Assembly (NCBI GenBank): GCA_949752745.1
Contig: OX457025.1
Location: 100,117,587 to 100,181,586, forward strand
Direction of reading: 5' to 3'
DNA: 64,000 nucleotides
DNA from: Protula sp. h YS-2021
Lineage: Eukaryota > Annelida > Polychaeta > Sabellida > Serpulidae
Below, piece by piece: positions 46,966-64,000 of this stretch. Under the pieces are notes generated by a model. It made no database searches, was not told where the DNA came from, and saw nothing but the letters and a program-made list of their open reading frames with translations. The position numbers and the translations under genes are program-made. Each line of letters opens with the position of its first letter. The stretch's first letter is position 1.

Positions 46966-46967
46966 GA

Positions 46968-47081: not shown

Positions 47082-47113
<32 letters not shown>

Positions 47114-47115
<2 letters not shown>

Positions 47116-47165
47116 CATTTCCCACACTCTCATGCATACACAAACATACTAACACCATAACATGA
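47114..47165 (+). repeat. Left terminal inverted repeat of the large Polinton
   Basis: About 52 bp matching 63717-63768 in reverse, with a few mismatches and a 4-nt gap. Similarity weakly continues inward to the purine element downstream of the RING gene hairpin. Confidence 0.75.
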
Positions 47166-47191
47166 TTAGCGCTTATTTCATATCAGTGGTG

Positions 47192-47207
47192 GGCTCTTAC
47201 AAGAGCC
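47192..47207 (-). terminator. Histone-type 3' stem-loop of the RING gene
   Basis: Minus strand GGCTCTTGTAAGAGCC: 6-bp stem, 4-nt loop, followed by CACC and, about 10 nt later, ATATGAAATAAGC. The canonical histone mRNA element is a 6-bp GG.../...CC stem with a 4-nt loop, ACC and a purine-rich downstream element. It lies 40 nt after the stop at 47248. No AATAAA is seen before it. Confidence 0.6.
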
Positions 47208-47247
47208 AGGAGATGTTAGTTTTTCTCCTCCTGCTGCCGGTCCCGGT

Positions 47248-47799
47248 TTAAAAGAATTCCACAATGTCCTGCACTGGCCTACTGCAATGTGTGAGCTGTT
47301 GCCCGTTGAACAAAAAGTGGTCCCCTCGCATGCCGCAGGTAAAGCACCTCACAGAGTAGCGGTCATTTAGCGCCAGCAGTTGAGTCCAGTGCGCCGCGCA
47401 GACCAGGCACATTTGATGGCCGCACTCAGACAGCACCCGGTCTGGGGAGATCATACACCCACATCCTGGGCAAATATCCAAGTCTTGCTGGAGGAAGAAT
47501 CTCCCCCAGGCCGGGTACTCTTCTTCTTCCATCCGCGAAGGTATTGACTCCCCTAGCATCATCGTTCTAAAGAACGCTTCATCATAGTGACCAGCCTCTA
47601 TATCTCTGAGCCTCTTTCCAATCGTGATTTGACGGTTGAACAGGACGGGCACGCACATGATGGATCCATGAACCGGGTCCGGCAGCAGTTGGTAAAAGAA
47701 AACTCTCTCCGGTGTTGTCGGTGGCGGAGCGACAGGGAGGTGCAGTTCCCTAACTACAGCAACCATGAGACTGTCATTTAACGCGAAAAGGCACTCCAT
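47248..47799 (-). CDS. RING-finger protein (183 aa), possible E3 ubiquitin ligase
   Basis: ATG at 47799. The C-terminal half carries CPGCGCMISPD, ECGHQMCLVCAAHW and RCFTC, a C3HC4-type RING pattern (C-x2-C...C-x-H-x2-C-x2-C...C-x2-C). The N-terminal ~100 residues match nothing I recognise and would choose the substrate. RING proteins usually recruit E2 enzymes to ubiquitinate targets; whether it does so here is inference. It is the outermost left gene, divergent from the Cys-rich gene at 48073 across a C-tract promoter region, with minus-strand TATATAAA at 47838-47845. The 3' end has a histone-type stem-loop. Confidence 0.75.
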   Translation of the reverse strand: MECLFALNDSLMVAVVRELHLPVAPPPTTPERVFFYQLLPDPVHGSIMCVPVLFNRQITIGKRLRDIEAGHYDEAFFRTMMLGESIPSRMEEEEYPAWGRFFLQQDLDICPGCGCMISPDRVLSECGHQMCLVCAAHWTQLLALNDRYSVRCFTCGMRGDHFLFNGQQLTHCSRPVQDIVEFF

Positions 47800-47837
47800 C
47801 TTGAGCTGGTTTGAGCCTAAACTGAAATGACCTCAGT

Positions 47838-48033
47838 TTATATACCCATCGACCCGGGTTCTCAATCTGAGGACCCCCCACTAGCCAGCATATACTGCCG
47901 ACCCCCCCCCCCCCTGGCCAGCATATACTTGCCGACCCCCCCCCCCCCCCTAGCCAGCATATACCTGCCGAACCCCCCCCCCCCGGCCAAGCTATAATGC
48001 GAGGATGGCTAATAGTATGTAGTAGTATATAAA
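47838..48033. promoter_or_regulatory. Divergent promoter region with C-tract repeats
   Basis: TATATAAA on the minus strand (47838-47845) and on the plus strand (48026-48033) face outward. Between them (47870-47995) is a ~37-bp repeat, CTAGCCAGCATATACTGCCG followed by a run of 7-16 C, in four copies. Confidence 0.65.
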
Positions 48034-48072
48034 TGAGGGTTGACCGCCTCATTTCCCAAACCAAGCAGCAAG

Positions 48073-48426
48073 ATGTCAACAAATCGTACAATCACAGTGA
48101 TGCGGAACGGAAGGGCAGTAACGTTAACGACAGAATGTTACAAGTGTTGGGTCTGGATAGAATATCCAGGACAACCACACAACTGCCCGGTGGATCACAA
48201 TGCACCACGTCATTACTGCTGCAAAACCTGCGGTGGTTTGCTATGGTATAAGTTCACTGCAAGATTGTATGGACAAGAGGAATGCACAGACTGCTGGTGG
48301 TGCGGTGCAACACTAAAAAACTTTGGCTACTATAACCGTCATCCGTTCAAGTGCTCGCGACGGCCGTTCTCCATGGAGCAGTTTTACAGATACCAGTGCG
48401 ACTGTGGCAATCCGACTTGTTGGTGA
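48073..48426 (+). CDS. Cys-rich zinc-binding protein (117 aa), unknown
   Basis: ATG at 48073, about 40 bp after a TATA box. Cysteine pairs occur as CYKC, CCKTC, CTDCWWC and CDCGNPTC with interspersed His, suggesting three or four zinc sites, rich in Trp and Tyr. The family is not recognised. The gene is compact, with an unbroken frame and a 3' histone-type hairpin 24 nt after the stop, which argues it is real. Confidence 0.6.
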   Translation: MSTNRTITVMRNGRAVTLTTECYKCWVWIEYPGQPHNCPVDHNAPRHYCCKTCGGLLWYKFTARLYGQEECTDCWWCGATLKNFGYYNRHPFKCSRRPFSMEQFYRYQCDCGNPTCW

Positions 48427-48450
48427 AGAGCCAGCTTACTAACATCTTTC

Positions 48451-48466
48451 GGCCCTTTTAAGGGCC
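48451..48466 (+). terminator. Histone-type 3' stem-loop of the Cys-rich gene
   Basis: GGCCCTTTTAAGGGCC followed by ACCC, then ATGAAATGAAC about 10 nt downstream (48477-48487). The stem, 4-nt loop and ACC match the histone mRNA consensus closely. The upstream ACTAACATCT is shared with the RING gene hairpin. Confidence 0.65.
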
Positions 48467-48513
48467 ACCCTCTGTTATGAAATGAACGCAAATTCTGCCT
48501 ATGTATGAGTGTG

Positions 48514-48521
48514 TATAAAAG
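48514..48521 (+). promoter_or_regulatory. TATA box of PolB
   Basis: TATAAAAG, about 70 bp before ATG 48585. Confidence 0.6.
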
Positions 48522-48584
48522 GGTGATGTATGAGATTACATTTCAGCATTTCAGTTTCAGCAGTTGACGGAACAACAACCAGCT

Positions 48585-51500
48585 ATGATGAAAAGTGAAG
48601 AGCATGGGAAAGGAGCAAAGAGACAAAGGATGGAAGAAGATGACATTTGGCCATACGGTCAAGTTCAGTGTATGGAATGCAATGTGAAATTTCCATCTAT
48701 GGATACTTATGAGACACATACATGCAGTAAAGCTGAGATGAAAGGAGCAAAGAGACAAAAGATGGATGAAGATGAAATTTGGCCATACGGACAAGTTCAG
48801 TGTATGGAATGCAATGTGAAATTTCCATCTATGGATACTTATTAGACACATACATGCAGTAAAGCTGAGATGAAAGGAGCAAAGAGACAAAAGATGGATG
48901 AAGATGAAATTTGGCCATACGGACAAGTTCAGTGTATGGAATGCAATGTAAAATTTCCATCTATGGATACTTATGAGACACATGCATGCATACCAGCTGA
49001 GATGGACAATGTGCCTCATGAAGAACATGTTTCACAGAAACCAAAAACAGGACAAGTAGGGAGAGGTAGAAGTGTTAGTCTTGGTGAAAACGCGCAGGAA
49101 AAACGGTTTGAATCTGAGGATGGATCAGATTTACTGCTTGAAATGCGACAGCAAGAGAACCGTATCAAGACACATTTGTTGGAGACCTTAAACCATGGAA
49201 TGAAATGGTACATTGTCGTACACGCACGTTTCAAGAAACTAACAGCAAATGATGAAGGTGTTATGGTAGAACAAGTGGATAATGCATTTATCAGCAGTCC
49301 AACATATGCAGCATACAATCCAGCAGATATTGAGCAGGACCTGCCAGAAGCCTATAAAGAATTATTTACCAAGTTTGACGAACATGAGCGACAAGGCTCT
49401 GGCTGGGTATTGGATAACATACTGTACATTGAAGTACATACAGCTACGTTGATGCCTCTAGAAGCGAGTAGTTTTATTCCACTACCGAAGAAAGTGAAGA
49501 AAACAATGGGTGTGATAAACATTAAGAATGATGATAACAAGTGTTTCTTATGGTCAGTATTGGCTTACCTTCACCCTCATGACGACAACCCAAATCGCGT
49601 GAATCATTACAAACCATTTGAGAAGGAATTAAAGGTAGAGGGTATGACATTTCCGACACCAATTACGGATATTCCAAAGTTTGAAAAGGAGAACGATGTA
49701 GCCATCAACGTGTTTGGATATGAACAAGATGTAGTTGTTCCAATACAACTTAGTCGAAACGTCAGTGTTAGAGAAATCAACTTACTTCTGATTAGCAATG
49801 ACAAGACGAGGCATTACTGCCTCATCAAGAATTTTAGCAGACTTATGTGTTATCGATCAAAGCATAAGGCTGCATATTTTTATTGTTTCAACTGTCTTCA
49901 CGGGTTTGTACGACAAGAGCTTTTAGATAAACATCGTGAAGTGTGTGACAAGAATGGAGCACAACGTTTATCATTTCCCAAGGAACCCTTCATCAAGTTC
50001 AAGAATGTGGCTAAACAACAGCGAGCACCTTTTGTGATTTATGCCGACTTTGAGTGTTTCACGCAAAAGCATGAAGAAGGAGACAAGTATCAACATCATC
50101 GTCCAAACAGCTTTGCCTATGTGGTTGTGAGCCAGTACAACACACGTGCACCAGTCGTGTATCGAGGAGACAATGCTGTGAAAGTCTTTTTAGACCATAT
50201 GGTGAATGAACGTGATCGTATTGTACGTGGTTTAGAGCGGCCAAAGGAAATGGTGATGACTCGTGAAGACAAAGAGAATTTCAAGAACGCTGTTGATTGC
50301 TACATTTGTCATGAACCTCTAGGAGCAGATCGTGTGAGAGATCATGACCACATCAATGGCAAATATCGTGGAGCAGCACACAATGAATGCAACTTACAAT
50401 TCCGACTTAGAAAAGATCAGCAAGGGGATAAAGATTCTTTTATCATTCCCGTATTTTTCCACAATTTGCGAGGCTATGACAGTCACCTGATCATGGAGGA
50501 AATTGGGAAATTCAAAGGTGAAACGATTACAGTCATTCCCAACACCATTGAGAAATATATTGCATTCACCATGAGCAATCTGAAATTTACAGACAGCTTT
50601 CAGTTCATGAGTACCTCTCTACAGAAGTTGGTATCCAACCTTGCAGCAGAAGGGAAAGATAACTTCTACAACATGACCTCTCACATTCACGATAGTGACC
50701 AACAAGATTTGCTGCTGAGAAAGGGAGTGTACCCCTATGATTACGTGGACGAACCATCCAAGTTTGCTGAAACACAGCTACCATCAAAGGATAAGTTTTA
50801 TAGTCAGCTTAGCGAAGAGGACATTAGCGATGAGGATTATGCGCATGCACAGAAGGTGTGGGATACATGCAACTGTACCACATTTGGTGAATACCACGAC
50901 CTGTACCTGAAATCAGATGTGCTATTACTAGCTGACGTGTTTGAAAATTTTCGTCAAGTGTGCCTCAACACGTATGAATTGGATCCTGCTCACTACTATA
51001 CAGCACCAGGACTGTCGTGGGATGCAATGTTGAAAGTGACAAAGGTGAAGTTGGAATTGATCAATGACATTGACATGTACCAAATGGTTGAGCAAGGGAT
51101 ACGTGGAGGAATATCTGTGATCACACACAAGTATGCGAAAGCAAATAATCCCTACGTATCAGATTACAATTCTGAGATACCAAACAACTATCTGATGTAC
51201 CTCGACGCAAACAACTTGTATGGCTGGGCCATGTCACAAAGCATGCCACAAAGAGGATTTATGTGGGTGAGTGAGCCAGAATCCCTCGACTTCATGGATG
51301 TAGCTGAAGATGATGACATTGGATTCATTTTGGAAGTGGATTTAGAATACCCACATTCAATCCATGATCATCATAATCACTACCCAGTGGCTCCAGAACG
51401 GAAATGTGTCAAAGTTGAAGAATTGTCAGAGTACAGTCAGAAGCTGCGGAAAGACCTGAACATGAAAGACAAACCTAGTGAAAAGCTCACTCCTAACTTG

Positions 51501-52451
51501 TCTGACAAGAAGAAATATGTACTTCATTACAGGAATTTACAACAGTACGTCTCATTCGGGTTGACAGTCACCAAAGTACATCGCGCCATCATGTTTGAAC
51601 AGAGCAAATGGTTGGCAAAATACATTACCTTGAACACGGAAAAGAGAAAATTGGCTAAGAACCCATTTGAGAAAGACTTCTTCAAACTGATGAACAACTC
51701 AGTGTTTGGCAAAACCATGGAAAATGTGAGAAAGCGAATCAATGTTGAACTTGTTCACAAGGAAAAGCGGTTCAAGAAACTTGTGGCTAAACCTTCTTTC
51801 CACAAATTCAAAATTTTCAATGAAGATTTGACTGCTGTACATTTGCGCAAAGTGGATTTGCTTCTGGATAAACCCATTCAAGTTGGCTTCACCATTCTTG
51901 ACCTCAGCAAAGTGCTTATGTTCACCTTTCATTACAACTACATCATGGTCAAGTATCCCAATGCCAAGTTGTTGTTCAGCGACACCGACAGTCTATGTTA
52001 CGACATAGAAACGGAAGATATCTACAAGGATATGCAGCAAGATGCTGACCTGTTTGACACAAGTGACTATCCGCCAGATCACTTCCTACATTCCAACGTG
52101 AACAAATAAATGCTTGGGAAAATGAAAGATGAGACGGCAGGCATCCCTATTGAAGAGTTTATTGGACTCAGACCGAAAATGTACAGTTTATTGTGTGGCG
52201 GGAAAGAAAAACATACAGCTAAAGGCATCACTCGAGCTTGTCAAAGACGTATTAAACATGCGCAGTATAGAGACAGTTTGTTCAACCAAACTCAAACGAT
52301 GGCTACAGGACACATTATTCGAAGTCATAGTCACCAGCTTTTCTCGGAGAAGTTGAGGAAAGTAGCCCTCTCCCCATATGATGACAAGCGATATGTGCTA
52401 AATGATGGCTATTCCACTTTAGCGTATGGACATTACAAGGCTGTGGTATAA
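48585..52451 (+). pseudogene. Polinton protein-primed DNA polymerase B with two in-frame stops
   Basis: The N-terminus is three 43-codon repeats, each with a C-x2-C...H-x-C knuckle (QCMECNVKFPSMDTYETHTC). Then come a cysteine-protease-like region (NDDNKCFLWSVLAYLHP, ~49,540), Exo I (YADFECF, ~50,043), an HNH/endonuclease VII-like insertion (CYICHEP then RDHDHINGKYRGAAHNEC, 50,298-50,393), Exo II (HNLRGYDSH), Exo III (LKSDVLLLADVF) and polymerase motifs A (YLDANNLYGWAM, ~51,198), B (KLMNNSVFGKTM, ~51,690) and C (FSDTDSLCYD, ~51,977). It replicates the element by protein priming. TAG at 48843-48845 ends repeat 2 where its siblings have a Glu codon, and TAA at 52107-52109 cuts off the last 114 codons (thumb region). 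All catalytic residues remain in the central 1,079-codon frame. Confidence 0.9.
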
Positions 52452-52454
52452 AAG
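52447..52454 (+). promoter_or_regulatory. TATA box of the first PC4-like gene, overlapping the PolB stop
   Basis: TATAAAAG; the PolB TAA stop (52449-52451) lies inside it. ATG 52510 follows about 60 bp later. Confidence 0.6.
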
Positions 52455-52509
52455 AGGGGAGGTCCTCCAACGGAAGAGTTATTTGAGGTGGGAACATTGA
52501 AGCGTTAAC

Positions 52510-52866
52510 ATGGAACGTGAAAGTCGTAAGAGATCTACAACTGATATGGATACTCTTGCAGATGCAGTTAAAGACTTAAAAGTGAAAAATCCTACCACTA
52601 CCATCAAGAAATTGAAAGTGGAGACGGCACCAACACCACAGTCGTGGGATTGAATGCTTTCTCTAGGAAATGGAAAGTATATCAAGATTATGAAACAAAG
52701 CAATGAAGGCGTGGTAAACATTCGCAAGTACCTGAGAGATGAGGGGACTGGAAAAAACCGCCCAACGAAAAAGGGAATTTTGCTGACAATACCTGAATGG
52801 AAAATGCTGAAGAAGCAAGTGAAAGAAGTGGATAAAAGGCTTCGCAGACAAGAAGACAGCTCATAA
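52510..52866 (+). pseudogene. PC4/Sub1-like ssDNA-binding protein with in-frame TGA
   Basis: ATG at 52510 begins a 47-codon charged N-terminus, then TGA at 52651-52653, then the same frame continues with YIKIMKQSNEGVVNIRKYL and PTKKGILLTIPEWKMLKKQV. This is the PC4 strand pattern with the KKGILL...W helix boundary and is closely related to the protein at 41593-41946. An ATG directly after the TGA could still start the PC4 core. It probably binds ssDNA during replication or activates late genes; that is inference from the family. Confidence 0.7.
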
Positions 52867-52878
52867 CAAGGTAAAAAC

Positions 52879-53250
52879 ATGAATGCACTCATGCTGAACG
52901 GTGGTGCTTACCTTACTGTAAATGATAGGAATGAAGTGATACTAGATTCTCAGAGAAGTTATCATCGGTTTAAACCTGAAGTGTGGAAAGACTTTAAAAA
53001 CATACCACTTGAACCTGGGTTTAAACGTAGACTTGAAAATAAAGTGGAAGTGACGGTGGCTGAATATGATTCTAACATACGTGTAGAAATCTGTAGAAAT
53101 CTTTTACAGGATTATCCAGAGGATTATAAGGGAGTTGTGCCAGATACACCATATACAGATTTGATCCTCTTTGATATCAAGAACTGGCGCGCAGTCTTAC
53201 GATTCCTAGAAGTGATACAACATCCACTCTTCACCATCTTGCGAGCATAA
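52879..53250 (+). CDS. PC4-like protein 2 (123 aa)
   Basis: ATG at 52879, 12 bp after the previous stop. It keeps the PC4-like pattern in divergent form: RLENKVEVTVAEYDSNIRVE then YTDLILFDIKNWRAVLRFL. The 3' end repeats CAGACAAG-AGACAGCTCATA from the end of the preceding gene, a scar of tandem duplication. Assignment rests on pattern and neighbours, not on strong identity. Confidence 0.55.
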   Translation: MNALMLNGGAYLTVNDRNEVILDSQRSYHRFKPEVWKDFKNIPLEPGFKRRLENKVEVTVAEYDSNIRVEICRNLLQDYPEDYKGVVPDTPYTDLILFDIKNWRAVLRFLEVIQHPLFTILRA

Positions 53251-53305
53251 AAAACGTCTTTGCAGACAAGGAGACAGCTCATAGTTCATCTGACTGTTGA
53301 ACGAG

Positions 53306-53647
53306 ATGGAAGACTTTTTATCGGAATATGAACCCATTACGCATGGATTCTCATATCTGAGAAACGTATATGATGACATCGTGCTAAAACATTTTGGAAA
53401 GTATATCATTCTATCAACTGACGAACAATCTGTGTTGAAAGACCATCTAGAGAAGCTGAGGATACCTGGCTTTCTCCTGAAACTCTCAGAGGATTTAGAA
53501 GTGCGTGTGACCGAGAACTGCTTAGACGTGTTTGTACGATTTCGCCAATATGACGAGCTTACAGAATGCTACGACTACATCACCCTCAACACAGTGGAAT
53601 GGCACGCTCTGTTACAAGCATTGGATTGGAAAGAACCTGACGCTTGA
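53306..53647 (+). CDS. PC4-like protein 3 (113 aa)
   Basis: ATG at 53306. The C-terminal half reads LEVRVTENCLDVFVRF and YDYITLNTVEWHALLQAL, the same strand-strand-...-L-x-W-helix pattern as its neighbours. The end overlaps in another frame with the next gene; a frameshift joining the two into a two-domain protein like that at 60615-61235 is possible. Confidence 0.5.
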   Translation: MEDFLSEYEPITHGFSYLRNVYDDIVLKHFGKYIILSTDEQSVLKDHLEKLRIPGFLLKLSEDLEVRVTENCLDVFVRFRQYDELTECYDYITLNTVEWHALLQALDWKEPDA

Positions 53648-53672
53648 ATTCAAAGAGGAAGGAGTGCAACTC

Positions 53673-53930
53673 ATGCGAGGCACCAAGTCCATTGAACTGA
53701 CGCATCCCATGTGTGTTATGGTGATGGACATTGACATGAATGATCATGGATATGAACTGAAACTGTCTGAACACAAAGATGTTAAAATAATAAAGTTTGG
53801 TAATGGACAGTGTTATGCTAGTTTTCATAGCATTTACAAACGTGAATGTAATGTCTATGATACATCTATTAATTTAGATTGGTATGAATGGCATGTGTTT
53901 ATCGATGTATTGAATGTATTTGTAAAATAA
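53673..53930 (+). CDS. PC4-like protein 4 (85 aa) or second domain of the preceding gene
   Basis: ATG at 53673, but the frame is open back to 53532 inside the preceding gene. It contains DVKIIKFGNGQCYASFHSIY and SINLDWYEWHVFIDVL. The TAA stop overlaps an AATAAA signal (53926-53931). Confidence 0.45.
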   Translation: MRGTKSIELTHPMCVMVMDIDMNDHGYELKLSEHKDVKIIKFGNGQCYASFHSIYKRECNVYDTSINLDWYEWHVFIDVLNVFVK

Positions 53931-54014
53931 AAGCTTAATGTGAAATAATTGTTAAAATGTAAATAATGTATAACACAATAAAAAAGAATGTTGTATAAAA
54001 CTGTCTTGTTTATT
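53926..54014. terminator. Convergent polyadenylation signals between the two arms
   Basis: Plus-strand AATAAA at 53926-53931 and again near 53978; minus-strand AATAAA at 54009-54014 for the leftward block. Ordinary poly(A) signals are used here, unlike the hairpins at the element ends. Confidence 0.6.
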
Positions 54015-54080
54015 TACAATATTCATAATACAATTCACAATTACCAACAACTTAACTAATACAACTTAACTAATACAACA

Positions 54081-54518
54081 TCAATAAAATAATGGTTTAT
54101 ACTGTCTATATACAAAATCCTTTACAACAAAATCACCATCACTTCTTCTTAATACATCAATGATTTCAAAAGGACTATGTCCTCGAGCTCTTTGAATTAT
54201 ATAATATATACAATAAAATCCACATGTAGAGGATATTGGTGTTTGTAATGGAACTGAATTATAAATGAAATTAAACTTTAAAAACTTATTCAAACGACTG
54301 TCTATAGGTAAAAGTCCATAAGAGTCAAAATATTCTGCAGGGTCTTCGTCATAATATACTGCCACCCAATGCTCTCCTGGCTCATCATGATCGTCTGTGT
54401 TGATGACATAGGCACCGCGTTGTAAAGATGGTAACTGGTCCATGGCAAACACACCTTGAAACAAGTCTTTTGTCGTGGCATCATGGGATAGGATGGCTTC
54501 TATCTGCTTCGTGTTCAT
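54081..54518 (-). CDS. Adenain-like cysteine protease (PRO, 145 aa)
   Basis: ATG at 54518 overlaps the MCP stop (ATGA). The catalytic layout of the adenovirus/Ulp1-type protease is visible: His in GEHWVAVYY (~residue 49), Asp in EYFDSYG, Gln in LQTPISSTCGFYC and the nucleophile Cys in the same motif. It should mature capsid and core proteins; a candidate site, MFGG followed by G, exists in the PX-like protein. The shorter length than adenain (~200 aa) is normal for Polintons. Confidence 0.85.
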   Translation of the reverse strand: MNTKQIEAILSHDATTKDLFQGVFAMDQLPSLQRGAYVINTDDHDEPGEHWVAVYYDEDPAEYFDSYGLLPIDSRLNKFLKFNFIYNSVPLQTPISSTCGFYCIYYIIQRARGHSPFEIIDVLRRSDGDFVVKDFVYRQYKPLFY

Positions 54519-55816: not shown

Positions 55817-56175
55817 GATTCAAAAATATCTTTCTTATGTTTTTTTGATGTTATCCGTTTAGCTGCCTTTCGCCTTCTGACACGTTTTGCTCGTTTCGGT
55901 CTCTTTTGTCCTCGTAACCCACCACCAAACATACGTTGTGCTACTCGACCTGTAACATCTTTCGCGATATCTTTTGCAGCCCTTTTAAGATGTGGTGCAA
56001 CGATTTTAGCCCCTGTCTTAAGCAGTGGAATAGCTTTTCGAGCCAATGATCCCAGTATTGAACCAATACCATCTCCATATTGTATTCGCGCTCCTTTAAA
56101 TCCTGGTAATTCTCCACCCACTTGACGAAGAAAATGGTTGCGATATATAGATGGATTGTGTGTGTATGCTTTCAT
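55807..56175 (-). CDS. PX-like core/minor virion protein (122 aa)
   Basis: ATG at 56175 overlaps the penton stop (ATGA). The middle is an amphipathic helix region (ILGSLARKAIPLLKTGAKIV) and the end is Arg/Lys-rich (KRPKRAKRVRRRKAAKR), resembling adenovirus pX/mu or pVI-type proteins. MFGG-G near residue 85 fits the adenain rule (M/I/L)-x-G-G/x. Likely DNA condensation or membrane lysis; inference. Confidence 0.7.
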   Translation of the reverse strand: MKAYTHNPSIYRNHFLRQVGGELPGFKGARIQYGDGIGSILGSLARKAIPLLKTGAKIVAPHLKRAAKDIAKDVTGRVAQRMFGGGLRGQKRPKRAKRVRRRKAAKRITSKKHKKDIFESCL

Positions 56176-56936
56176 AATGCTTTTGGTCGAAAATGAAGTT
56201 TACAGATCACCTTTCCAGTTTGAAATGGAACATTATGGTCTGTGTCGTCCTTAATATTCATTTCTATCACATCAAATTTGGATGTGTTTACAGGAACATA
56301 ATGAGGTTCTCCATAAGTTTTCATGATAATGTCTCCATCATGTCCTTGTATTCCAACAGAACGTAGCAAAGGAACATAATAATCACCAACAACTTGTGGT
56401 TCACAAATACTACAGTACACATAAAGTGTATAAAATCCCTGTTTCACATCGGCTTTATGTTCAGCTGTACACGTTTCAGTATACCATTGATTTGGGATAA
56501 ATCCTAAAATCTCAGCTAATCCAGTGGAGAATGACACTTCAAAGCTATAATTTAGATATAGAAAAACGCGTCGTCTAATTTTATCATACTTTATCCGAAT
56601 ACCTTCTTTAAGGTCATCTTTCATAGAATTAGTCGCTTCTTCATTGACTGCATGACATATTTCTTGTATGGATCTGTAGTAGCCATAAGGAATATTGATT
56701 GTGTCAAGAACAACATCATTCAGTGGTTGTTGTCGATACTGAATAGAATAGTCCATTCCATGTCTCATGGTTGTCCATGTATGTGGATATTGAATTTCAG
56801 CTAAAGCCACTTCATATTTTCCGTTCAGATAGATGGTTCGAGGCATACGAATTTGATAATTCGAAGTCTTGTTGTTGGGATAATAGTTCATACTAGCATT
56901 GCTGGGTAAAGTAATGTAAAAACTTGTTGACTCCAT
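56172..56936 (-). CDS. Minor capsid protein (penton-like, single jelly-roll, 254 aa)
   Basis: ATG at 56936. The N-terminus FYITLPSNASMNYYPNNKTS then YLNGKYEVALAEIQYPHTW is the conserved opening of Polinton penton proteins. Expected to form the capsid vertices. Complete and open. The neighbours on both sides are virion genes, supporting the call. Confidence 0.8.
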   Translation of the reverse strand: MESTSFYITLPSNASMNYYPNNKTSNYQIRMPRTIYLNGKYEVALAEIQYPHTWTTMRHGMDYSIQYRQQPLNDVVLDTINIPYGYYRSIQEICHAVNEEATNSMKDDLKEGIRIKYDKIRRRVFLYLNYSFEVSFSTGLAEILGFIPNQWYTETCTAEHKADVKQGFYTLYVYCSICEPQVVGDYYVPLLRSVGIQGHDGDIIMKTYGEPHYVPVNTSKFDVIEMNIKDDTDHNVPFQTGKVICKLHFRPKAL

Positions 56937-56990
56937 GACAGCTAAATCGTTTATGTGATGTAGATAGACTAGATGTGTATATACATTACT

Positions 56991-57200
56991 TCATGTTTGA
57001 CACTCTTCATCCTCACTTTCTACATTACTGTCTACATTATTGTCTAAATTGCTATCTACATGATCTAAATTGGTATCTACTACTTCTCCCTGACAACAAG
57101 CACTAACACACCTAATTTTTACAGGAATAGTATTTTTATTTCCATTTTCTTTACAACAACAACACCATAACTCTTTAATCCATGTTAAAAAGTTTCCCAT
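56991..57200 (-). CDS. Small protein with N-myristoylation and Cys cluster (69 aa)
   Basis: ATG at 57200 gives MGNFLT, which fits an N-myristoylation signal, followed by CCCC at residues 13-16 as a likely palmitoylation cluster. The rest is a polar tail with repeated V-D-x-N-L/V-D units and an acidic end. Lipid anchoring to membranes is inferred. It overlaps the upstream gene by 16 nt. Family unknown. Confidence 0.6.
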   Translation of the reverse strand: MGNFLTWIKELWCCCCKENGNKNTIPVKIRCVSACCQGEVVDTNLDHVDSNLDNNVDSNVESEDEECQT

Positions 57201-57775
57201 CCTTCTGGAAACAATCTTTGTTGACGTTGTTGTTGCTCTTTTGTAATATCTTCACGAGTTGTCTTTTTGCCAAAAACAGTTTTTGGAATATTAGCGTCTA
57301 CAATTTCCTCAATAAACTGCTTCCAACCACGTGGTGGTTCTCGTTGTTCTTTTCTTTTTGTAGCAACCAATGCTTCTTTCAACAAATCAATAATGTTAGA
57401 ATTTGTAATGACAGTACCTGTTTTTAAAACAAGTTCATTTTTATCTGTCCATCTCGTACCATATTTCTTAAGTTCTGCCAGAAGTTGTGTTAGTTTTACA
57501 TGATAAATAGGTTGAAAATGGGTTAGAAACTGTTGGGACTTTTCTGATTTTTCTGCATTAGATGCTGTAACAGACTTTTGTCGTTGTTGTTGTGACTGAA
57601 TTGTTCGTAAATGGCGTCCAAGCACTTGAGACATTTCTATTGCTTTTTCGCGAGTTCGTTTCCCACGTAAAAGTTTATTCACTTTCGTTTTGATTTCAAC
57701 ATCTTTTCCCTTCTTTTCTAAGAACATTTTGTATTCATATTCAGGAATGAGAACCATTTTCAAAGTATGTTTCAT
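57185..57775 (-). CDS. Coiled-coil-rich virion-block protein, unknown (196 aa)
   Basis: ATG at 57775 overlaps the preceding frame's stop (ATGA). Lys/Gln/Glu-rich helices, with QSQQQRQKS and EQQQRQQRLFPEGW segments and KKYGTRWTDKNELVLKTG in the middle. Its position within the capsid block suggests a virion or assembly role; no domain is recognised. Confidence 0.6.
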   Translation of the reverse strand: MKHTLKMVLIPEYEYKMFLEKKGKDVEIKTKVNKLLRGKRTREKAIEMSQVLGRHLRTIQSQQQRQKSVTASNAEKSEKSQQFLTHFQPIYHVKLTQLLAELKKYGTRWTDKNELVLKTGTVITNSNIIDLLKEALVATKRKEQREPPRGWKQFIEEIVDANIPKTVFGKKTTREDITKEQQQRQQRLFPEGWETF

Positions 57776-58098
57776 TTTAACAGCAACTGAGCTAACAAGG
57801 GTAATGCAAATTTAGCAATAGCTCCAATAAATCCTCCTTTCTGATTAACCAACTTCTTTTTTCTTCGAAGTGATATCTTCTTATTTGCTAGTGTACGTAG
57901 GGTATGACGTTCACGCTTGAATAACTTATACCTTTTTGAGCTTAAGGGTAAATGTCCTCGCAATATATTCAAACAAATTTCAAACAAGCTAGTTAATTCC
58001 TACTTAGTAGCTTGTTGTAGTAAGGATTTACGTCGTTTAGGCCCGCTGCGTGCGAGCAAGTGAAGGAAAGGTTGATTCGCTTGAATACGTTTAGACAT
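57772..58098 (-). pseudogene. Small basic protein with C-terminal hydrophobic helix, in-frame TAG
   Basis: ATG at 58098 overlaps the ATPase stop by 8 nt. After 32 basic codons a TAG (58000-58002) interrupts the frame. The same frame then continues for 76 codons without any ATG and ends NQKGGFIGAIAKFALPLLAQ plus LLK, an amphipathic or membrane-active tail. Many Polintons carry a gene of this shape beside the ATPase. With no start after the stop, the C-terminal part needs readthrough or is lost. Confidence 0.6.
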
Positions 58099-58750
58099 CT
58101 TGGCTGCGAATGGTTAAGTGACTTGGTTCTTGTTCATACACCACCTTATCAACATATACGTAATGTGTATCTTTTGGTAAAATGCCTGTACGAATACGTA
58201 GTTGATCATTTGTCTTCGGCTTCAAATCAATGAATAAATAGCCATGAGGTTTGCTGGTAGCATCTTGATAGGCTTCTATGAGAAATTGAGATTTTCCAGG
58301 ATACATTTGTCGCGCTAATGTACTTATTTGTTGACTGTCTCTAGGATTTTTAAGCAGAATGATGTAATGTGTATTCAAACTAATATTACGCATTTCTCTA
58401 CCATGATGAAACAAATTATGCACAATAAAAATAATACTTAGATTTTGATGACTGCTGCCAACACTAAAGAGACGTGTCATGCGCTCATCACTATGACATT
58501 TAGTCATTAAGTCATCAATGATGAGCAAGTTTGGTTTTTTCGGGTTAAAACGCTCTTCAATGTTATCTGGAATGCCTTGGTAAAATTCCACACCTTTCAT
58601 TCCCTTATACAAAGGCTGATCTGCTGCATAGAGCCATAAAATGGTTTTTGGAGAGGGTTTAATTAACTTTTGTTCTAAAATTTCTCTAACTAGAGAAGTT
58701 TTACCACTGCCTGTAGGTCCAGAGACCAAACACGTGAATGGATGCTTCAT
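58091..58750 (-). CDS. DNA-packaging ATPase (FtsK/HerA family, 219 aa)
   Basis: ATG at 58750 overlaps the integrase stop (ATGA) and begins directly with the conserved MKHPFTCLVSGPTGSGKTSL, containing Walker A. Walker B is NLLIIDDLM (~58,520), followed by SSHQNLSIIFIVHNLFHHGR and the terminal FLIEAYQDATSKPHGYLFID. It is intact and pumps DNA into preformed capsids. It lacks the zinc-finger/polyproline parts fused to the homologue at 20090-21558. Confidence 0.9.
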   Translation of the reverse strand: MKHPFTCLVSGPTGSGKTSLVREILEQKLIKPSPKTILWLYAADQPLYKGMKGVEFYQGIPDNIEERFNPKKPNLLIIDDLMTKCHSDERMTRLFSVGSSHQNLSIIFIVHNLFHHGREMRNISLNTHYIILLKNPRDSQQISTLARQMYPGKSQFLIEAYQDATSKPHGYLFIDLKPKTNDQLRIRTGILPKDTHYVYVDKVVYEQEPSHLTIRSQDV

Positions 58751-59850
58751 TTTCGAATATCTGTTTCTTTCACCCAACTGTTAAACTTCTTTGGCCAACC
58801 TAACCACTTCACAAATAATTCTTTAACACCTCGTCTTTTTCGTGTTTTCAAGACCTTTTCAATTCTGTAGACTGATTCAATATCTTTTGTCACTTTCTGC
58901 AGTTCTTCTTCATAAAAATGTCCGTCAATATCTTCATCCAAAAAGTCTTCCACACGATACAAGTGTATTCCTTGCTTCTTACAACGATGTGTGATAATGA
59001 ACACTTCTTGCGTCCACTTTATATGATAATCCCGTTGAAATACATATTTCATGTGAGAAATGCGAACCTGATCACCAATTTTAAATTTGTAGGGTTTTTT
59101 CTTCTTCTTTGGTTTTAATTTCAATTTGTCTACATACATATACTTCCACACTTTCGATTCTATGTCTTTACGAATATCTGCAGGAGCATACTTATTAGGG
59201 AGGGAGCCATGAGGTCTATGGTTATAATTATACACTAAGTCTGGAAGGATGTCCATATATCGATACGTTTGATTATGAAGGAAATATCGATACATCATTC
59301 CCTTTAGAGTACGAATGACTCTCTCAGCAAAGTTGACTTTGGTTTCATTCTTTGTCGTATAGGCATGTATTCCCTCCTTCTTCAAAAATGCTTTTACCCA
59401 TCTGTTTTTAAATTCAGTTCCTTTATCTGACCTTAGAGTTCGTGGTCTTCGTTGTGTTTCATGAAAAATCTTTTGAAAGGCTTCTATGACGCTGGTATGT
59501 GATTTATTAGGCATTGGCTGCACCCACAAATATTTGGAAAACACATCAATGACAACTAATAAAAAGTGGGTGTCATCATTATAGGAAGCTATGTTTCCCA
59601 TGTCAGCTAAATCAATATCCCACATGTCATCAATTCCACGTGTAATGACACGTTGCCTTTTAAACCTGTATTTTACAGGTTGTAGTAAACTGAAGGCATC
59701 TTGATCCTGTAACCATTTCTTCACTTGTGAATGAGTGACTGGTTGATCATGTTTTTTTAATATGTGATATAGTTTGTAAGGACCAGCAAATGCCCCGGGT
59801 TGACCAGGTTTAAAGTAAATATTGGTTAAGTAGTCTTTCCACGTCGACAT
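58747..59850 (-). CDS. Polinton integrase (RVE core plus chromodomain, 367 aa)
   Basis: ATG at 59850. N-terminal VKKWLQDQDAFSLLQP, then catalytic D,D,E residues in DIDLADM, LRSDKGTEF and NETKVNFAERVIRTLKG; an SH3-like YKFKIGDQVRI block; and a chromodomain (YRIEKVLKTRKRRGVKELFV then KWLGWPKKFNSWV). Complete. It inserts the element with a 6-bp stagger. The first gene of the leftward virion block. Confidence 0.9.
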   Translation of the reverse strand: MSTWKDYLTNIYFKPGQPGAFAGPYKLYHILKKHDQPVTHSQVKKWLQDQDAFSLLQPVKYRFKRQRVITRGIDDMWDIDLADMGNIASYNDDTHFLLVVIDVFSKYLWVQPMPNKSHTSVIEAFQKIFHETQRRPRTLRSDKGTEFKNRWVKAFLKKEGIHAYTTKNETKVNFAERVIRTLKGMMYRYFLHNQTYRYMDILPDLVYNYNHRPHGSLPNKYAPADIRKDIESKVWKYMYVDKLKLKPKKKKKPYKFKIGDQVRISHMKYVFQRDYHIKWTQEVFIITHRCKKQGIHLYRVEDFLDEDIDGHFYEEELQKVTKDIESVYRIEKVLKTRKRRGVKELFVKWLGWPKKFNSWVKETDIRK

Positions 59851-59930
59851 GTTAACACTAACTGATCAACACTTGTTAACATATCTTGCATTTTATTTTA
59901 TCAACACATCTTGCATTTTATCAACATATC

Positions 59931-60263
59931 TTACAAATCAAGTATTGGTACAATGGTGTGAATAATTGGAGTCCATTGATCTTCAATGAACATTAACCAA
60001 CTACTTAATTCATCAAATGTGATAGCATCTACACCATATTTTTCACAACGTTGATTTGCATTATCTAACACTTTATCTAAATGAATGTAATATTTAGCTT
60101 CATTCCAATATGTATAGACACATGCAGAATGACAAGTATGTTCTGAACACTCTTCATTTTGACAAGCAGGGCATACTAAACATGCAAACTTTTTTACAGC
60201 TAATAACATTTCTTCACAATATGTCTTTTGCACAATATATTGTCTCAATGTAATGTCTGTCAT
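59931..60263 (-). CDS. Small Cys-rich protein, unknown (110 aa)
   Basis: ATG at 60263 shares one base with the TAA stop of the upstream gene (TAATG). Cysteine cluster CLVCPACQNEEC then CHSAC suggests one zinc site. The end (FDELSSWLMFIEDQW) resembles the end of the preceding 95-aa protein, so they may be old paralogues. Function unknown. Confidence 0.5.
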   Translation of the reverse strand: MTDITLRQYIVQKTYCEEMLLAVKKFACLVCPACQNEECSEHTCHSACVYTYWNEAKYYIHLDKVLDNANQRCEKYGVDAITFDELSSWLMFIEDQWTPIIHTIVPILDL

Positions 60264-60550
60264 TATACTGCAATGTAGATTAACCACTCTCTCACTTCAT
60301 CAAACAGTCTTGGATCAAATCGAGCGAAGTGATATGCTGCTTCCACATCAAACTCCTCAGCTCCGTCAATGTTTGAAAACATACACTCTTTGATGAAATC
60401 CTCACGTAAGTTTGGTACACTTAACGTGGAATGCGCAAGTTCCCAATAAATGTCAAAGTATTGCAGTTGTTGTTGAATAGATCCAAAACGCGCCAGTTCA
60501 CTTATCATGTAGTCCACATACTTGTCCTTGAAACACGTTTCTACATCCAT
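60263..60550 (-). CDS. Small acidic helical protein, unknown (95 aa)
   Basis: ATG at 60550. Acidic and helical, rich in Phe/Tyr, ending LFDEVREWLIYIAV. No recognised domain. The stop overlaps the next start as TAATG. Confidence 0.5.
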   Translation of the reverse strand: MDVETCFKDKYVDYMISELARFGSIQQQLQYFDIYWELAHSTLSVPNLREDFIKECMFSNIDGAEEFDVEAAYHFARFDPRLFDEVREWLIYIAV

Positions 60551-60614
60551 CTTTCACATATCCATATAACACGTCTGCACACTTTGACGGTTGGCAAACA
60601 AATGACTCTCAGTC

Positions 60615-61235
60615 TTACTCCGCAGAAACAGTTAGTGAGCCGCACTTGTTGCAGAAGTTGTCTGGTTCACACAACTTGCAATTGTACTTGTGGCAGTGAC
60701 AATCATAATCCTCAGCATATCCGTAAGCACCACAATATTCACAGGTAAGTCCAAGTTGATTTTGCACATCCATATTCTCCAATTGAACTTCAGCCAGTCT
60801 TTTCTTGGATAACTTTGACACTTTCATCCGATTGTCCTTTTGTAGCTTGATAGGAGTTTTCTTACCATGAAATTCCGTGCATGGCAATAAGGTTGAGTTA
60901 ATATTATCCATCTCCTGAAGCAATGTCTCCCATCCACCATCATTCATGTTGATGTTAAACTTGTATTCTTTCCCGTCAAACAGTGATGCTTGCACAAAAC
61001 TCACATAGCGCATGTCCAAGTATGAAATGACTTCAAGCCATTTCGTTTGCGTTAAGTACAGTTTGAAGCCAATGTCACGTAATCTTGGTAAGTTCAGACA
61101 CACAATCTTCCACAAGGATGGTGATAAAGCAAGCCATCTCTCTCCACGTTTGATTCGAATAAATAATCCAAATTGTCCATGCTCCACAGTAATTGTTAAG
61201 TTTGCACTAATTTTAAAGCTGCTTGTCTTCTCCAT
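60615..61235 (-). CDS. Two-domain PC4-like protein with C-terminal zinc knuckles (206 aa)
   Basis: ATG at 61235, 41 bp from a TATA box. Residues ~5-60 (LTITVEHGQFGLFIRIKRG then WLALSPSLWKIVCLNL) and ~65-125 (FVQASLFDGKEYKFNINMND then GGWETLLQEM) each follow the PC4 strand/helix pattern found at 41593 and 52654. The C-terminus has CEYCGAYGYAEDYDCHCHKY, CKLC and CNKC, probably two zinc sites. Likely nucleic-acid binding. Divergent, so the PC4 assignment is a pattern call. Confidence 0.55.
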   Translation of the reverse strand: MEKTSSFKISANLTITVEHGQFGLFIRIKRGERWLALSPSLWKIVCLNLPRLRDIGFKLYLTQTKWLEVISYLDMRYVSFVQASLFDGKEYKFNINMNDGGWETLLQEMDNINSTLLPCTEFHGKKTPIKLQKDNRMKVSKLSKKRLAEVQLENMDVQNQLGLTCEYCGAYGYAEDYDCHCHKYNCKLCEPDNFCNKCGSLTVSAE

Positions 61236-61275
61236 GGCTGCGCGTCGAATGATGACTGCACTTGACACCTCACTT

Positions 61276-61283
61276 CTTTTATA
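61276..61283 (-). promoter_or_regulatory. TATA box of the two-domain PC4-like gene
   Basis: Minus strand TATAAAAG, 41 bp before ATG 61235 and just beyond the end of the upstream gene. Confidence 0.55.
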
Positions 61284-61289
61284 TGGACA

Positions 61290-62345
61290 TTACATGTATG
61301 TTTTCATGAGATGTTTGCAAAATCGCGGAGTGATCTCGTTGAAACCATCCAGAAAGGCTGTTGGTAAACCGTCTGTTAGAGATTGTCTCATGACGATCAC
61401 TAAAAAATCTCCTCGTTTGCGACTTCCAATTATCCATTGGAAGAGCATTGACATGGTGAAATATCCTTTTTCATAGAGGTAGGCCATCATCTCGTACACC
61501 TTAATACGTTCTTCAAGGTACTTGAAGCCATGTAGCATAACCTTTGCACATTTGGAATCGCGATCCTCGTCAACACACTTTGGCGCCGGTAGACATAATG
61601 TCTTAAAAAGTTCCTCATGAAGACTTCTAATAAGTTGAACGAAACGTCGGGTCATGGCTTCGGAGAACTGTGGCTCTGACGCGGGAAGATGCTCTATGTT
61701 TCCTTCTAGCATGTAGATAAGCTGAATGACAGTGTTCACTTCTTCCGTTAGGTATATGTATGTGTGTTGGTCGAAAAAGCCTTCTTCACATAAGCACCAT
61801 AAAATGTTGCAATCTATCAGAGGAATCACTGCTTGAAAGTTCCGTTTCAACAGCGTGACGTCTTCTTCAGTAACAGGAATACTTTTGCTCAATTCGAATT
61901 TAGATTTGAGCTGCTTTTCATCGTCGTCGCTGTCGTCATTGTTGTCATTGTCGTCATTGTCGTCGTCACCGTCGTCATCGCTTGACATGACCACTTCTTC
62001 CTCCTCAAGATGCTCTAGATGAGCCTGTAACTTTGTACTAAGTGGTTTGGCGCTACCATTTACAAGCGCATTGGCAACCCAGAACGGGTAGTCAGATCCC
62101 TCGGGATCGGGCATTGCTTGCTGTACTGGCTGTACTTCTTCAGGCTTAGTTTGCTGTACTGTAGACACGGCTGACGGAGCCCCTAATGCTTCCTCCAAGG
62201 CTTTTTCAGCTTCTGTTAGTGTACTTAGGAAGGCAGCAGTCTCCTCTGCAGTTAAAACTGCATCTGTAAAAGCCATTGTTTCATTGCTAAAAAGGCTATC
62301 AATTTCCATGTTGCTAGCCGTTGCTGCGTTTCGAGACGTCTCCAT
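61290..62345 (-). CDS. Acidic protein with tandem CARD/death-fold-like regions (351 aa)
   Basis: ATG at 62345. Residues 1-120 are low-complexity; ~122-145 is a poly-Asp/Asn/Ser stretch. Two helical repeats follow. The first (DVTLLKRNFQAVIPLI, NILWCLCEEGFFDQ, VNTVIQLIYMLE) and the second (YEMMAYLYEKGYFTMSMLFQ, then RGDFLVIVMRQSLTDGLPTA, FLDGFNEI) share the CARD-like order: L-x2-L-x3-G-x-F/L, then a helix with hydrophobic i,i+3 spacing, then G-x2-A-F. A role in blocking host death or inflammasome signalling is inference; helical-bundle similarity by chance is possible. It sits at the right end of the element, divergent from the zinc-finger/RGG gene. Confidence 0.45.
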   Translation of the reverse strand: METSRNAATASNMEIDSLFSNETMAFTDAVLTAEETAAFLSTLTEAEKALEEALGAPSAVSTVQQTKPEEVQPVQQAMPDPEGSDYPFWVANALVNGSAKPLSTKLQAHLEHLEEEEVVMSSDDDGDDDNDDNDNNDDSDDDEKQLKSKFELSKSIPVTEEDVTLLKRNFQAVIPLIDCNILWCLCEEGFFDQHTYIYLTEEVNTVIQLIYMLEGNIEHLPASEPQFSEAMTRRFVQLIRSLHEELFKTLCLPAPKCVDEDRDSKCAKVMLHGFKYLEERIKVYEMMAYLYEKGYFTMSMLFQWIIGSRKRGDFLVIVMRQSLTDGLPTAFLDGFNEITPRFCKHLMKTYM

Positions 62346-62386
62346 GATGGTTTGGCAATGCAATGATTAGAGTGGTGTCGACCCGA

Positions 62387-62637
62387 CCTTTTTATACTAC
62401 TGACGGTGAGCCGTGAGCCAGCGGCGTAAAAAGTAGCTGGGGGGGGGGGGGGCTCACTAGGTAGCTGGGCGGGGGGGGGGTCCTCACAGAGTACCCAGGG
62501 GGGGCTCACTAGGTAGCTGGGCGGGGGGGGGGGGTCCTCACAGAGTACCGGGGGGGGTCCTCACAGAGTACCCGGGGGGGGGGGGGGGTCCCTACTATAT
62601 GCGGTCTGCTTCTGCCTCTGGGGGGGTCCTATATAAT
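62387..62637. promoter_or_regulatory. Divergent promoter region with G-tract repeats
   Basis: Minus-strand TATAAAAAGG at 62387-62396 and plus-strand TATATAAT at 62630-62637 face outward. Between them (62436-62627) G-runs of 7-15 alternate with TCCTCACAGAGTACC and GCTCACTAGGTAGCTG. Same design as 47838-48033 but a different unit. Confidence 0.65.
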
Positions 62638-62699
62638 AGCAGTCTCGCACTGTGTGCAGTCAGTCTGCTTTGAATCATTGAAGGAGCAACAACAAAAAA

Positions 62700-63626
62700 A
62701 TGCAATACAAAGACGAATTCTTTTCGCCAGAGCTTCGGGCTCGATACTACTTATCAGAGAAGGATATAGATCTCTGGGAAGAGATCTATATAGAATACCA
62801 AACGTTTCAATTTCGAAAGTGGAGGAATTTTCTCAGGAACAGACCTGAAGAACAGTTCAACCGGTTTGGCAGGGCGGCGGAGGAAGGATACAAGCGCCGG
62901 AGGGAGAAGTTGCTCGACAGGAGCCAGGACCCGCCGCCCTGCGAGGAAGAAAGGCCAGCCAGGACCACAGCAGCGACAACTACGACGGCGGCGACCCCTG
63001 TCCTGGCGACTCCTGCTGAAACCACGGCGTCGACGCTGACGACTCTGCCGATAGCGATTCCAACGGTAGCTGATGTCACTGTCTTGAAGGTTCCGGCGGA
63101 AGAAGTTGTAGTGAAACGGCGATGTCTTCCTAGCGCCACAGTTACCAAGCCGGAGACAGTGACACCAGCTCCTGAGGAAGAGCTAGCAGCCGCTGTCGCC
63201 AGTATAACGGACATCACGCAGGTGGACTTCAGCCTTATGCAGTCACCTTCCGATTTGAACCGCACCGTGGAACTGGTTGACTTGAAACTGGAGGATGGCT
63301 CTAGCAAAGAGTCAACACTTCAGGAGGTTGTCGAAATCTTGGATACGGACAATGCAGTGCAGTACTGTGAGTTCTGCCTTTTTGGAATTCCGGCAGGAAC
63401 TAAAAATATGCGAGTTCACGAACAGGAATGTAAAATAGCTCAACAGTCCGATTATCATTTTTGTGAAGTTTACGGCAATGGTTTCAAGTCAAACAAGTCC
63501 ACGATAGCGGCGCATAGGAGGAAGGTCGGCTGCAGGGAGGATGACGGCAGCGGCAGAGGCAGAGGTAGCGGCGGCGCTAGAGGTAGAGGCAGGGGAAGCG
63601 GCGGCAGGGGAAGCGACCACACGTGA
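62700..63626 (+). CDS. Zinc-finger / RGG-box protein (308 aa)
   Basis: ATG at 62700, 63 bp after a TATA-like box. N-terminal ~75 residues are helical and aromatic (ARYYLSEKDIDLWEEIYIEY), followed by a Thr/Ala/Pro-rich linker, then finger CEFCLFGIPAGTKNMRVHEQ-EC (C2HC) and a second one starting CEVYGNGFKSNKSTIAAHRR whose second Cys is replaced by Tyr. The C-terminus is a Gly/Arg repeat (GRGRGSGGARGRGRGSGGRG), an RNA-binding-type RGG box. Higher GC than neighbours. Ends with a histone-type hairpin. Function unknown. Confidence 0.6.
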   Translation: MQYKDEFFSPELRARYYLSEKDIDLWEEIYIEYQTFQFRKWRNFLRNRPEEQFNRFGRAAEEGYKRRREKLLDRSQDPPPCEEERPARTTAATTTTAATPVLATPAETTASTLTTLPIAIPTVADVTVLKVPAEEVVVKRRCLPSATVTKPETVTPAPEEELAAAVASITDITQVDFSLMQSPSDLNRTVELVDLKLEDGSSKESTLQEVVEILDTDNAVQYCEFCLFGIPAGTKNMRVHEQECKIAQQSDYHFCEVYGNGFKSNKSTIAAHRRKVGCREDDGSGRGRGSGGARGRGRGSGGRGSDHT

Positions 63627-63672
63627 AGCGATGGCGGGGGAAGCAACGGCTGACCGAAGAAAATTCCTCCAC

Positions 63673-63690
63673 GGCTGCTTTTTAGCGGCC
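63673..63690 (+). terminator. Histone-like 3' stem-loop of the zinc-finger/RGG gene
   Basis: GGCTGCTTTTTAGCGGCC: 7-bp stem with one G-T pair and a TTTT loop, followed by TCCC and, ~10 nt later, AAGAAATGAAC (63701-63711), a good match to a histone downstream element. The stem is one pair longer than the classical one. Confidence 0.55.
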
Positions 63691-63716
63691 TCCCATTATT
63701 AAGAAATGAACACTCA

Positions 63717-63768
63717 TCGTGTCATGGTGTTAGTATGTATGTGTATGCACGAGAGTGTGGGAAATGCT
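63717..63768 (-). repeat. Right terminal inverted repeat of the large Polinton
   Basis: Mirror of 47114-47165, ending GGGAAATGCT before an A-run. Confidence 0.75.
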
Positions 63769-63807
63769 AAAAAAAAGGGGTCTATAAATCATTGATTTAT
63801 ACCCCCC

Positions 63808-64000
63808 ATCTGTCCGTCTGACCGTCTGAAAAAGCTAAACAAATTGCTGCCTGGGTTAAAAATACCCTGGCATGAGAAATGAAACGCTAAATCTGTCCGT
63901 CTGACCGTCTGAGAAAGCTAAACAAATTGCTGCCTGGGTTAAAAATACTCTGGCTTGAGAAATGAAACGCTAAATCTGTCCGTCTGACCGTTTGAGAAAG
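63808..64000. repeat. 83-bp tandem repeat running off the window
   Basis: CTGTCCGTCTGACCGT recurs at about 63810, 63893 and 63976; units include AAATTGCTGCCTGGGTTAAA. It could be outer flank or an outer terminal repeat. Confidence 0.8.

Follow-up and report, generated by a model that had tools for sequence, protein, structure and literature searches.

By what signal do the transcripts of the accessory genes of a Polinton end? The question is raised by a 64,000-nt stretch of contig OX457025.1 (assembly GCA_949752745.1, positions 100,117,587 to 100,181,586) from the annelid Protula sp. h YS-2021, here called the window; the host genome comprises 863 Mb in 218 contigs and contains canonical histone clusters. 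Between a left inverted-repeat arm of 89 nt (47106-47194, + strand) and its right partner of the same length and 84% complementarity (63688-63776, + strand), the window holds a Polinton gene set: an rve integrase with a chromodomain, an A32/IVa2-type ATPase, an adenovirus-type protease, and a polymerase-like open reading frame (ORF). From comparison of sequences, we consider it very likely that this Polinton has furnished three of its accessory genes with full 3'-end signals of the replication-dependent histone type, fitted to the host; the histone mRNA machinery of the host probably produces the mRNAs of these genes, leaving them without poly(A) tails.

Gene 1 (47248-47799, - strand), at the left end, codes for a 183-amino-acid C3HC4 RING-like protein, recognized by its cysteine pattern; its zf-C3HC4 score of 15 bits is below the cut-off. 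Gene 2 (48073-48426, + strand) is an ORF for a 117-amino-acid Cys-rich protein, for which neither Pfam at E≤0.1 nor PDB at better than E 0.2 gave a match. Gene 3 (62700-63626, + strand), at the right end, is an ORF for a 308-amino-acid protein, likewise unmatched in Pfam at E≤0.1. Both terminal genes, 1 and 3, are directed outward, with about 140 to 150 nt between their stops and the outer limits of the inverted-repeat arms. The original prediction had placed hairpins at 47192-47207, 48451-48466, and 63673-63690, at 24 to 46 nt past the three stops, each followed about 10 nt later by a purine-rich stretch; the hairpins proved exact, at 40, 24, and 46 nt past the stops of genes 1, 2, and 3, and a purine element of the form GAAATRARCRC begins 12 nt past the hairpin in all three cases.

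The stem-loop of gene 2 (48451-48466, + strand), GGCCCT-TTTA-AGGGCC followed by ACCC, fully presents a 6-bp GG/CC stem and a U-rich 4-nt loop. That of gene 1 (47207-47192, - strand) is GGCTCT-TGTA-AGAGCC, and that of gene 3 (63673-63690, + strand), GGCTGCT-TTTT-AGCGGCC followed by TCCC, has a 7-bp stem including one U.G pair. The purine element of gene 2, GAAATGAACGC (48479-48489, + strand), lies outside the inverted repeat and is identical in its letters to the element of the host H2A and H2B genes. Those of gene 1, GAAATAAGCGC (47169-47179, - strand), which resembles a histone downstream element (HDE), and of gene 3, GAAATGAACAC (63703-63713, + strand), are not independent in their likeness, because both sit in the inverted repeat 47106-47194/63688-63776.

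What decides the matter is the comparison with the histone genes of the host. A search for host H4 returned 20 matches, 13 of them on one contig (C7) and mostly in a single cluster region. In locus L068, the H2B, H4, H3, and H2A genes each end in GGYTCTTTTNAGAGCC, 20 to 35 nt after the stop, with GAAATRARC 11 to 13 nt beyond the hairpin, and the H1 3' end of the host carries GGCTCTTCTTAGAGCC and CAAATAAGC. The combination of hairpin and element is present in 19 of the 20 loci found by H4, with a spacing of 9 to 13 nt (mostly 11 to 13), which the 12 nt of the Polinton sites match; the exceptions are an H3 copy in L069 that is without the loop and L067, which is degenerate. The host also possesses exons for the SLBP domain (PF15247), with five exon-sized matches above the cut-off, the best two being adjacent on contig C6 (55.8 and 41.6 bits).

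Could such an arrangement arise simply from chance hairpins beside a purine-rich stretch? This explanation draws on the fact that the motif used for counting, a hairpin with GAAATRA within 25 nt, was set after its discovery in the sequence, and on fold z-scores that are moderate for the stretches of genes 1, 2, and 3 (-1.80, -2.32, and -2.98). Against it, the motif occurs three times in 47106-63776, versus a mean of 0.01 and a maximum of 1 in 100 dinucleotide shuffles. Moreover, a covariance model trained on ten host histone 3' ends alone (R1) places the three sites at ranks 1 to 3 in a scan of the 64-kb window, with 52.1 bits for gene 2 (E 2.1e-10), 40.0 bits for gene 1 (E 1.9e-7), and 21.9 bits for gene 3 (E 0.005), and the fourth match reaches 13.2 bits (E 0.67). 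On 55 kb of other DNA, consisting of pattern-fetched host and virus loci, the best match has 18.6 bits (E 0.028) and comes from a virus contig that a hairpin pattern had retrieved (L093); the best host locus has 15.2 bits. Given the shuffles, the ranks, and the recurrence in copies described below, we reject a chance origin, the probability of which we regard as negligible. The layout of histone pre-mRNA that had been read into the three sites is thus upheld by a stem-loop, a GAAATRARC element, and a spacing shared with host histone ends, as well as by the ranking under the histone-only model.

The signal recurs where the genes of the element recur. Of 2314 first-look candidates for gene 1 across the genome, at least 150 are scored relatives with 87 to 100% identity, and by hand count 138 of these 150 are without an internal stop; the family is large and appears to have expanded recently. 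Twenty gene-1 3' ends were sampled across the identity range, having been fetched by protein match without a hairpin query, and all 20 possess a stem-loop with the element at 12 to 13 nt. The window itself is unusual in its gene-1 loop, TGTA, as 26 other gene-1 reads with the same stem carry TTTA (L008 and L072 among them being one locus). Two of the sampled gene-1 copies are adjoined by gene 2, which has the signal in both, these too being fetched without a hairpin query. Among ten copies of the gene-3 end, taken by position and again without a hairpin query, nine have the hairpin, the tenth (L103) stopping short, and eight have the hairpin together with RAAAT, L100 having GAATT; R1 matches eight of the ten at E≤0.12 (L101 in part).

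A further set of loci, L001 to L034, was fetched by the exact string GGCCCTTTTAAGGGCCACC, which occurs 34 times in the genome and 0 times for the reversed control. By eye, they resemble the ends of gene 1 or gene 2; several are broken copies, and L021, L022, L024, L026, and L028 have no ORF just upstream of the fetching hairpin. Because of the way in which they were fetched, the presence of the hairpin in them is not evidence; unlike the hairpin, the purine element is not fixed by the choice of loci, and R1 matches 33 of 33 such Polinton loci at E≤0.0027, the window locus (L009) being excluded.

The original prediction held that relatives ought to show compensatory changes in the stems, and one such change is seen among gene-1 relatives. 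The fourth stem pair, U-A in the clade of the window, is C-G in L005, L017, L018, L027, L033, and L002, whose proteins are, over their open parts, 80% (L005), 68% (L017 and L018), 71% (L027), 60% (L033), and 67% (L002) identical to that of the window. An alignment of 24 rows has C-G at this position in 14 of them and U-A in the other 10, which comprise five gene-1 copies and five host histones. None of 500 shuffles gave as high a covariation score for the U-A/C-G pair, and 99.3% of the cells are paired, a single broken cell being due to misalignment of the window gene-3 row (w_g3) by MAFFT. The gene-3 stems of L100 and L101 have a C-G pair in place of the U.G of the window.

These comparisons bear on the possibility that a histone 3' end was once captured and that the sites are what is left of it, without function and propagated as the element is copied. 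Such an origin would account for the very close match to the H2A and H2B 3' ends of the host, and many of the copies are near-identical and therefore recent. However, the signal stands on three unrelated genes, and no histone coding sequence is apparent by eye beside the sites. In nine gene-1 relatives, the 11-nt element retains an identity of 0.95 to the window, versus 0.54 for the upstream region (3' untranslated region and coding end) and 0.68 for the spacer; the stem-loop has 0.81, fixed by choice, and the rest of the terminal repeat 0.82. We accordingly regard passive carriage of a captured end as highly improbable.

A second possibility is that the hairpins and elements serve at the DNA level as part of the terminal repeats, for example as an origin or as a site for a terminal protein or the integrase, with an incidental likeness to histone ends. 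The purine elements of genes 1 and 3 indeed lie within the inverted repeat, which is itself conserved (the 0.82 given above), and a tandem array directly beyond the repeat contains further copies of the element. Yet gene 2 has the signal internally, in sense, and directly past its stop; a stem that stays paired through a U-A/C-G change is a feature of RNA; and loop, flank, element, and spacing all match those of the host histones. Further, L100 and L101 are only about 67% identical to the last 476 nt of the window, and, beside a diverged repeat, L101 keeps the hairpin and the element while L100 keeps the hairpin with one base of the element changed. A role confined to the DNA of the termini is hence, in our estimate, very unlikely.

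If the sites are indeed histone-type ends, how do they relate to polyadenylation? No AATAAA or ATTAAA is present within 250 nt of the stops of genes 1, 2, and 3. The companion statement, that the core arms use AATAAA, stands only in part: among 15 other ORFs examined over the same distance from the stop, four have AATAAA and two more ATTAAA only, the remaining ones having neither. A TATAAA box (48514-48519, + strand), presumably of the next gene, lies 24 nt past the purine element of gene 2. One might suppose that genes 1 to 3 usually receive poly(A) by way of signals that are far off or cryptic, with the histone-type end as a lesser option; some human histone genes, which use both poly(A) and histone-type ends, offer a precedent (PMC9756948). 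We consider this unlikely, given the absence of the two hexamers near the three stops and the closeness of the TATAAA box behind the site of gene 2. The layout would rather suit a compact terminator, as genes 1 and 3 run outward near the ends of the element and gene 2 is followed so closely by that box.

We accordingly return to the proposal that genes 1 to 3 carry histone 3'-end signals and suggest the following scheme, modeled on histone pre-mRNA. The SLBP of the host would bind the stem-loop, and its U7 small nuclear ribonucleoprotein (snRNP) would pair with GAAATRARCGC; the histone cleavage complex would then cut 4 to 5 nt past the stem, leaving mRNAs with the stem-loop, rather than poly(A), at their 3' terminus, for use mainly during DNA replication. 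What the sequences show directly is the stem-loop and the purine element, both in sense orientation, with their spacing, their agreement with the histone genes of the host, and their persistence in the copies read, together with the SLBP-domain exons of the host; from these, we infer U7 pairing, cleavage, tail-less mRNA, and S-phase coupling as a predicted series. S-phase transcription of genes 1 to 3 is not supported. Genes 1 to 3 also have a type of upstream region in common, as the only runs of at least seven G or C residues within the element are upstream of genes 1 and 2 and of gene 3, where they occur with TATA-like boxes: genes 1 and 2 share a divergent promoter region (47874-48050) with G/C tracts and a TATA-like box 43 to 47 nt before each ATG, and gene 3 has a G-tract and TATA region (62432-62650, + strand) that is also upstream of a divergent ORF (61290-62363, - strand). 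The latter ORF thus has the upstream region of gene 3 in common with it but is without the stem-loop.

The right end of the element offers a further arrangement of such motifs. Past the right inverted repeat, the window and nine copies (63777-64000; L096 to L102, L104, and L105) have a palindrome-like GGGGTCTATAAATCATTGATTTATACCCC, of which L100 and L101 carry a variant, and then an 83-bp tandem array (63808-64000, + strand, in the window). The array units consist of a different hairpin, then 4 nt, then GAAATRAACGCT (GAAATRAACGC), in the sense of gene 3 and with a spacing unlike that of a histone end. The element pattern is matched 33 times in the ten flanks, always in gene-3 sense and 0 times in antisense, and in 32 of these cases the sequence upstream folds with -4 kcal/mol or lower. 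It is possible that the array provides successive U7 sites, as a fail-safe or a sink, or else that it arose from the 3' end as an expanding minisatellite. A more elaborate version would have the element both use and titrate the histone machinery: array RNA with its many U7-binding sites, read through from gene 3, would sequester U7 snRNP, lowering host histone mRNA and freeing new element DNA from chromatin while stem-loop mRNAs are being produced; we hold this to be a doubtful idea, with little chance of being correct. The sequence common to the copies runs on past the inverted repeat at the right ends, so that the inverted repeats do not settle where the mobile unit ends, and that unit may be larger than they suggest. 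Minisatellites of CGTTTGAATGGCCGCC and AACGTCATATG border the element at its left end (46900-47084), and like sequence adjoins many other gene-1 copies.

Several observations weigh against reading the three sites as histone-type ends. The first concern the sites themselves and the models: the loop of gene 1 is atypical (TGTA) and the stem of gene 3 has 7 bp with a wobble; R1 finds no match at the gene-3 ends of L100 and L103; and it gives up to 21.5 bits on array units with a hairpin that is not histone-like, so that the 21.9 bits of gene 3 may rest largely on the purine element. The Rfam histone 3'-end family, to which the original prediction had looked for confirmation, gave a divided answer: Histone3 (RF00032) finds gene 2 alone in the window (28 bits, E 2.2e-4, below the gathering score of 34) and lists neither gene 1 nor gene 3 at E≤10. 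The score of gene 2 nevertheless falls amid those of host histone ends in L068 and L070, where nine matches have 21.0 to 33.9 bits and none reaches 34; a gathering score that genuine histone ends of the host miss as well is without discriminating value here. As to the comparative evidence, the fourth stem pair alone varies on both sides, so that covariation rests on one pair; half of the ten U-A rows are host histones and only the other five gene-1 copies; and unpaired intermediates are excluded from the C-G gene-1 relatives, because these were fetched by an exact C-G hairpin. The argument from conservation is weakened by the good preservation of the terminal repeat itself, and the element is clearly above its surroundings only in L027 (0.82 versus 0.62) and L033 (0.91 versus 0.46).

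Two further points of this kind concern U7 and the promoters. A search for host U7 by RF00066 gave 0 matches, with 65 of 223,222 candidates scored and no control genome matched either. A U7 pattern did no better than its reversed control, with 17 matches for each; 14 of the pattern matches were inspected by eye and not one is U7-like, the other three being of a repeated type; Rfam at E≤10 did not list U7 in five loci, L043 to L047. Finally, CCAAT-type boxes, which are seen at several host histone genes, were not found by eye upstream of genes 1 to 3. Any S-phase link would thus act at the 3' end.

Compared with the metazoan replication-dependent histone 3' end (RF00032), the Polinton sites are alike in the GG...CC stem, the U-rich 4-nt loop, the C-rich flank, the purine element about 12 nt on, the position of the hairpin 24 to 46 nt past the stop, and the lack of a nearby poly(A) signal; with the histone genes of this host in particular, they have GAAATRARC in common. 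They differ in following non-histone genes of a mobile element, in their promoters, and in the deviant loop of gene 1 and stem of gene 3, and they are below the gathering score of the Rfam family, as are the host histone ends tested. Conversely, the element resembles Polintons/Mavericks (adintovirus-like) in its integrase with chromodomain, A32/IVa2 ATPase, protease, polymerase-like ORF, and inverted repeats and is unlike them in the histone-type 3' ends on three accessory genes. The original prediction knew of no description of such ends in Polintons, and the titles and abstract beginnings listed by searches of open-licence PMC papers likewise yielded none. Another meeting of a virus with the histone expression pathway is that of human T-cell leukemia virus type 1 (HTLV-1), the Tax protein of which is reported to lower histone levels (PMC2276518), whereas here signals in cis would borrow the 3'-end machinery.

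Relatives outside this genome were sought in several ways: integrase and major capsid protein queries of viral contigs gave no confirmed locus, protein searches with genes 1 and 2 gave none (gene 3 was not searched in this way), and of two hairpin patterns one matched nothing and the other 3 stretches, which are by eye unlike a histone end with a host-type element, although one of them is the L093 that has 18.6 bits in R1. Should the proposed reading be correct, a virus-like element with the histone signal on three genes would form a second class, and it would represent an unusual way of tying the expression of a mobile element to DNA replication. Poly(A)-selected RNA-seq would then miss genes 1 to 3, and the stem-loop with its HDE could be searched for in other Polintons and in adintoviruses.

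Other genes of the element include those that mark it as a Polinton. The integrase with its chromodomain (58750-59850, - strand; PF00665 at 1.5e-11 and PF00385 at 3.2e-7) is followed by the packaging ATPase (58094-58777, - strand; Adeno_IVa2/Pox_A32 in Pfam) and the adenovirus-type protease (54084-54518, - strand; PF00770 at 21.4 bits, with a cut-off of 21.3). The ORF at 54518-55816, considered as a candidate for the double jelly-roll major capsid protein, has no Pfam or PHROG match. A large ORF of 1079 amino acids (48870-52106, + strand), presumed to be the Polinton DNA polymerase, has an EndoVII-like zinc site and polymerase motifs by eye; it has no polymerase match in Pfam and no match of any kind in PDB. 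Its match to a neighboring polymerase is weak only (E 0.031), the residues concerned being ones that we take to be polymerase motifs. Near its start, three 132-nt tandem repeats (48608-49003) by eye code for repeated zinc-finger-like units.

The neighboring gene, a second viral-type DNA polymerase B (22099-24294, - strand; PF03175 at 2.1e-38), perhaps represents, with a C2H2 zinc-finger ORF (24834-26111, - strand), another mobile element in the window. G/C tracts like those of the element promoters also occur outside the element, at 39284-39601 and 44654-44979, and are perhaps the remains of other copies. An ORF with a CENP-B N-terminal domain (719-1255, + strand; PF04218) is probably a transposase fragment.

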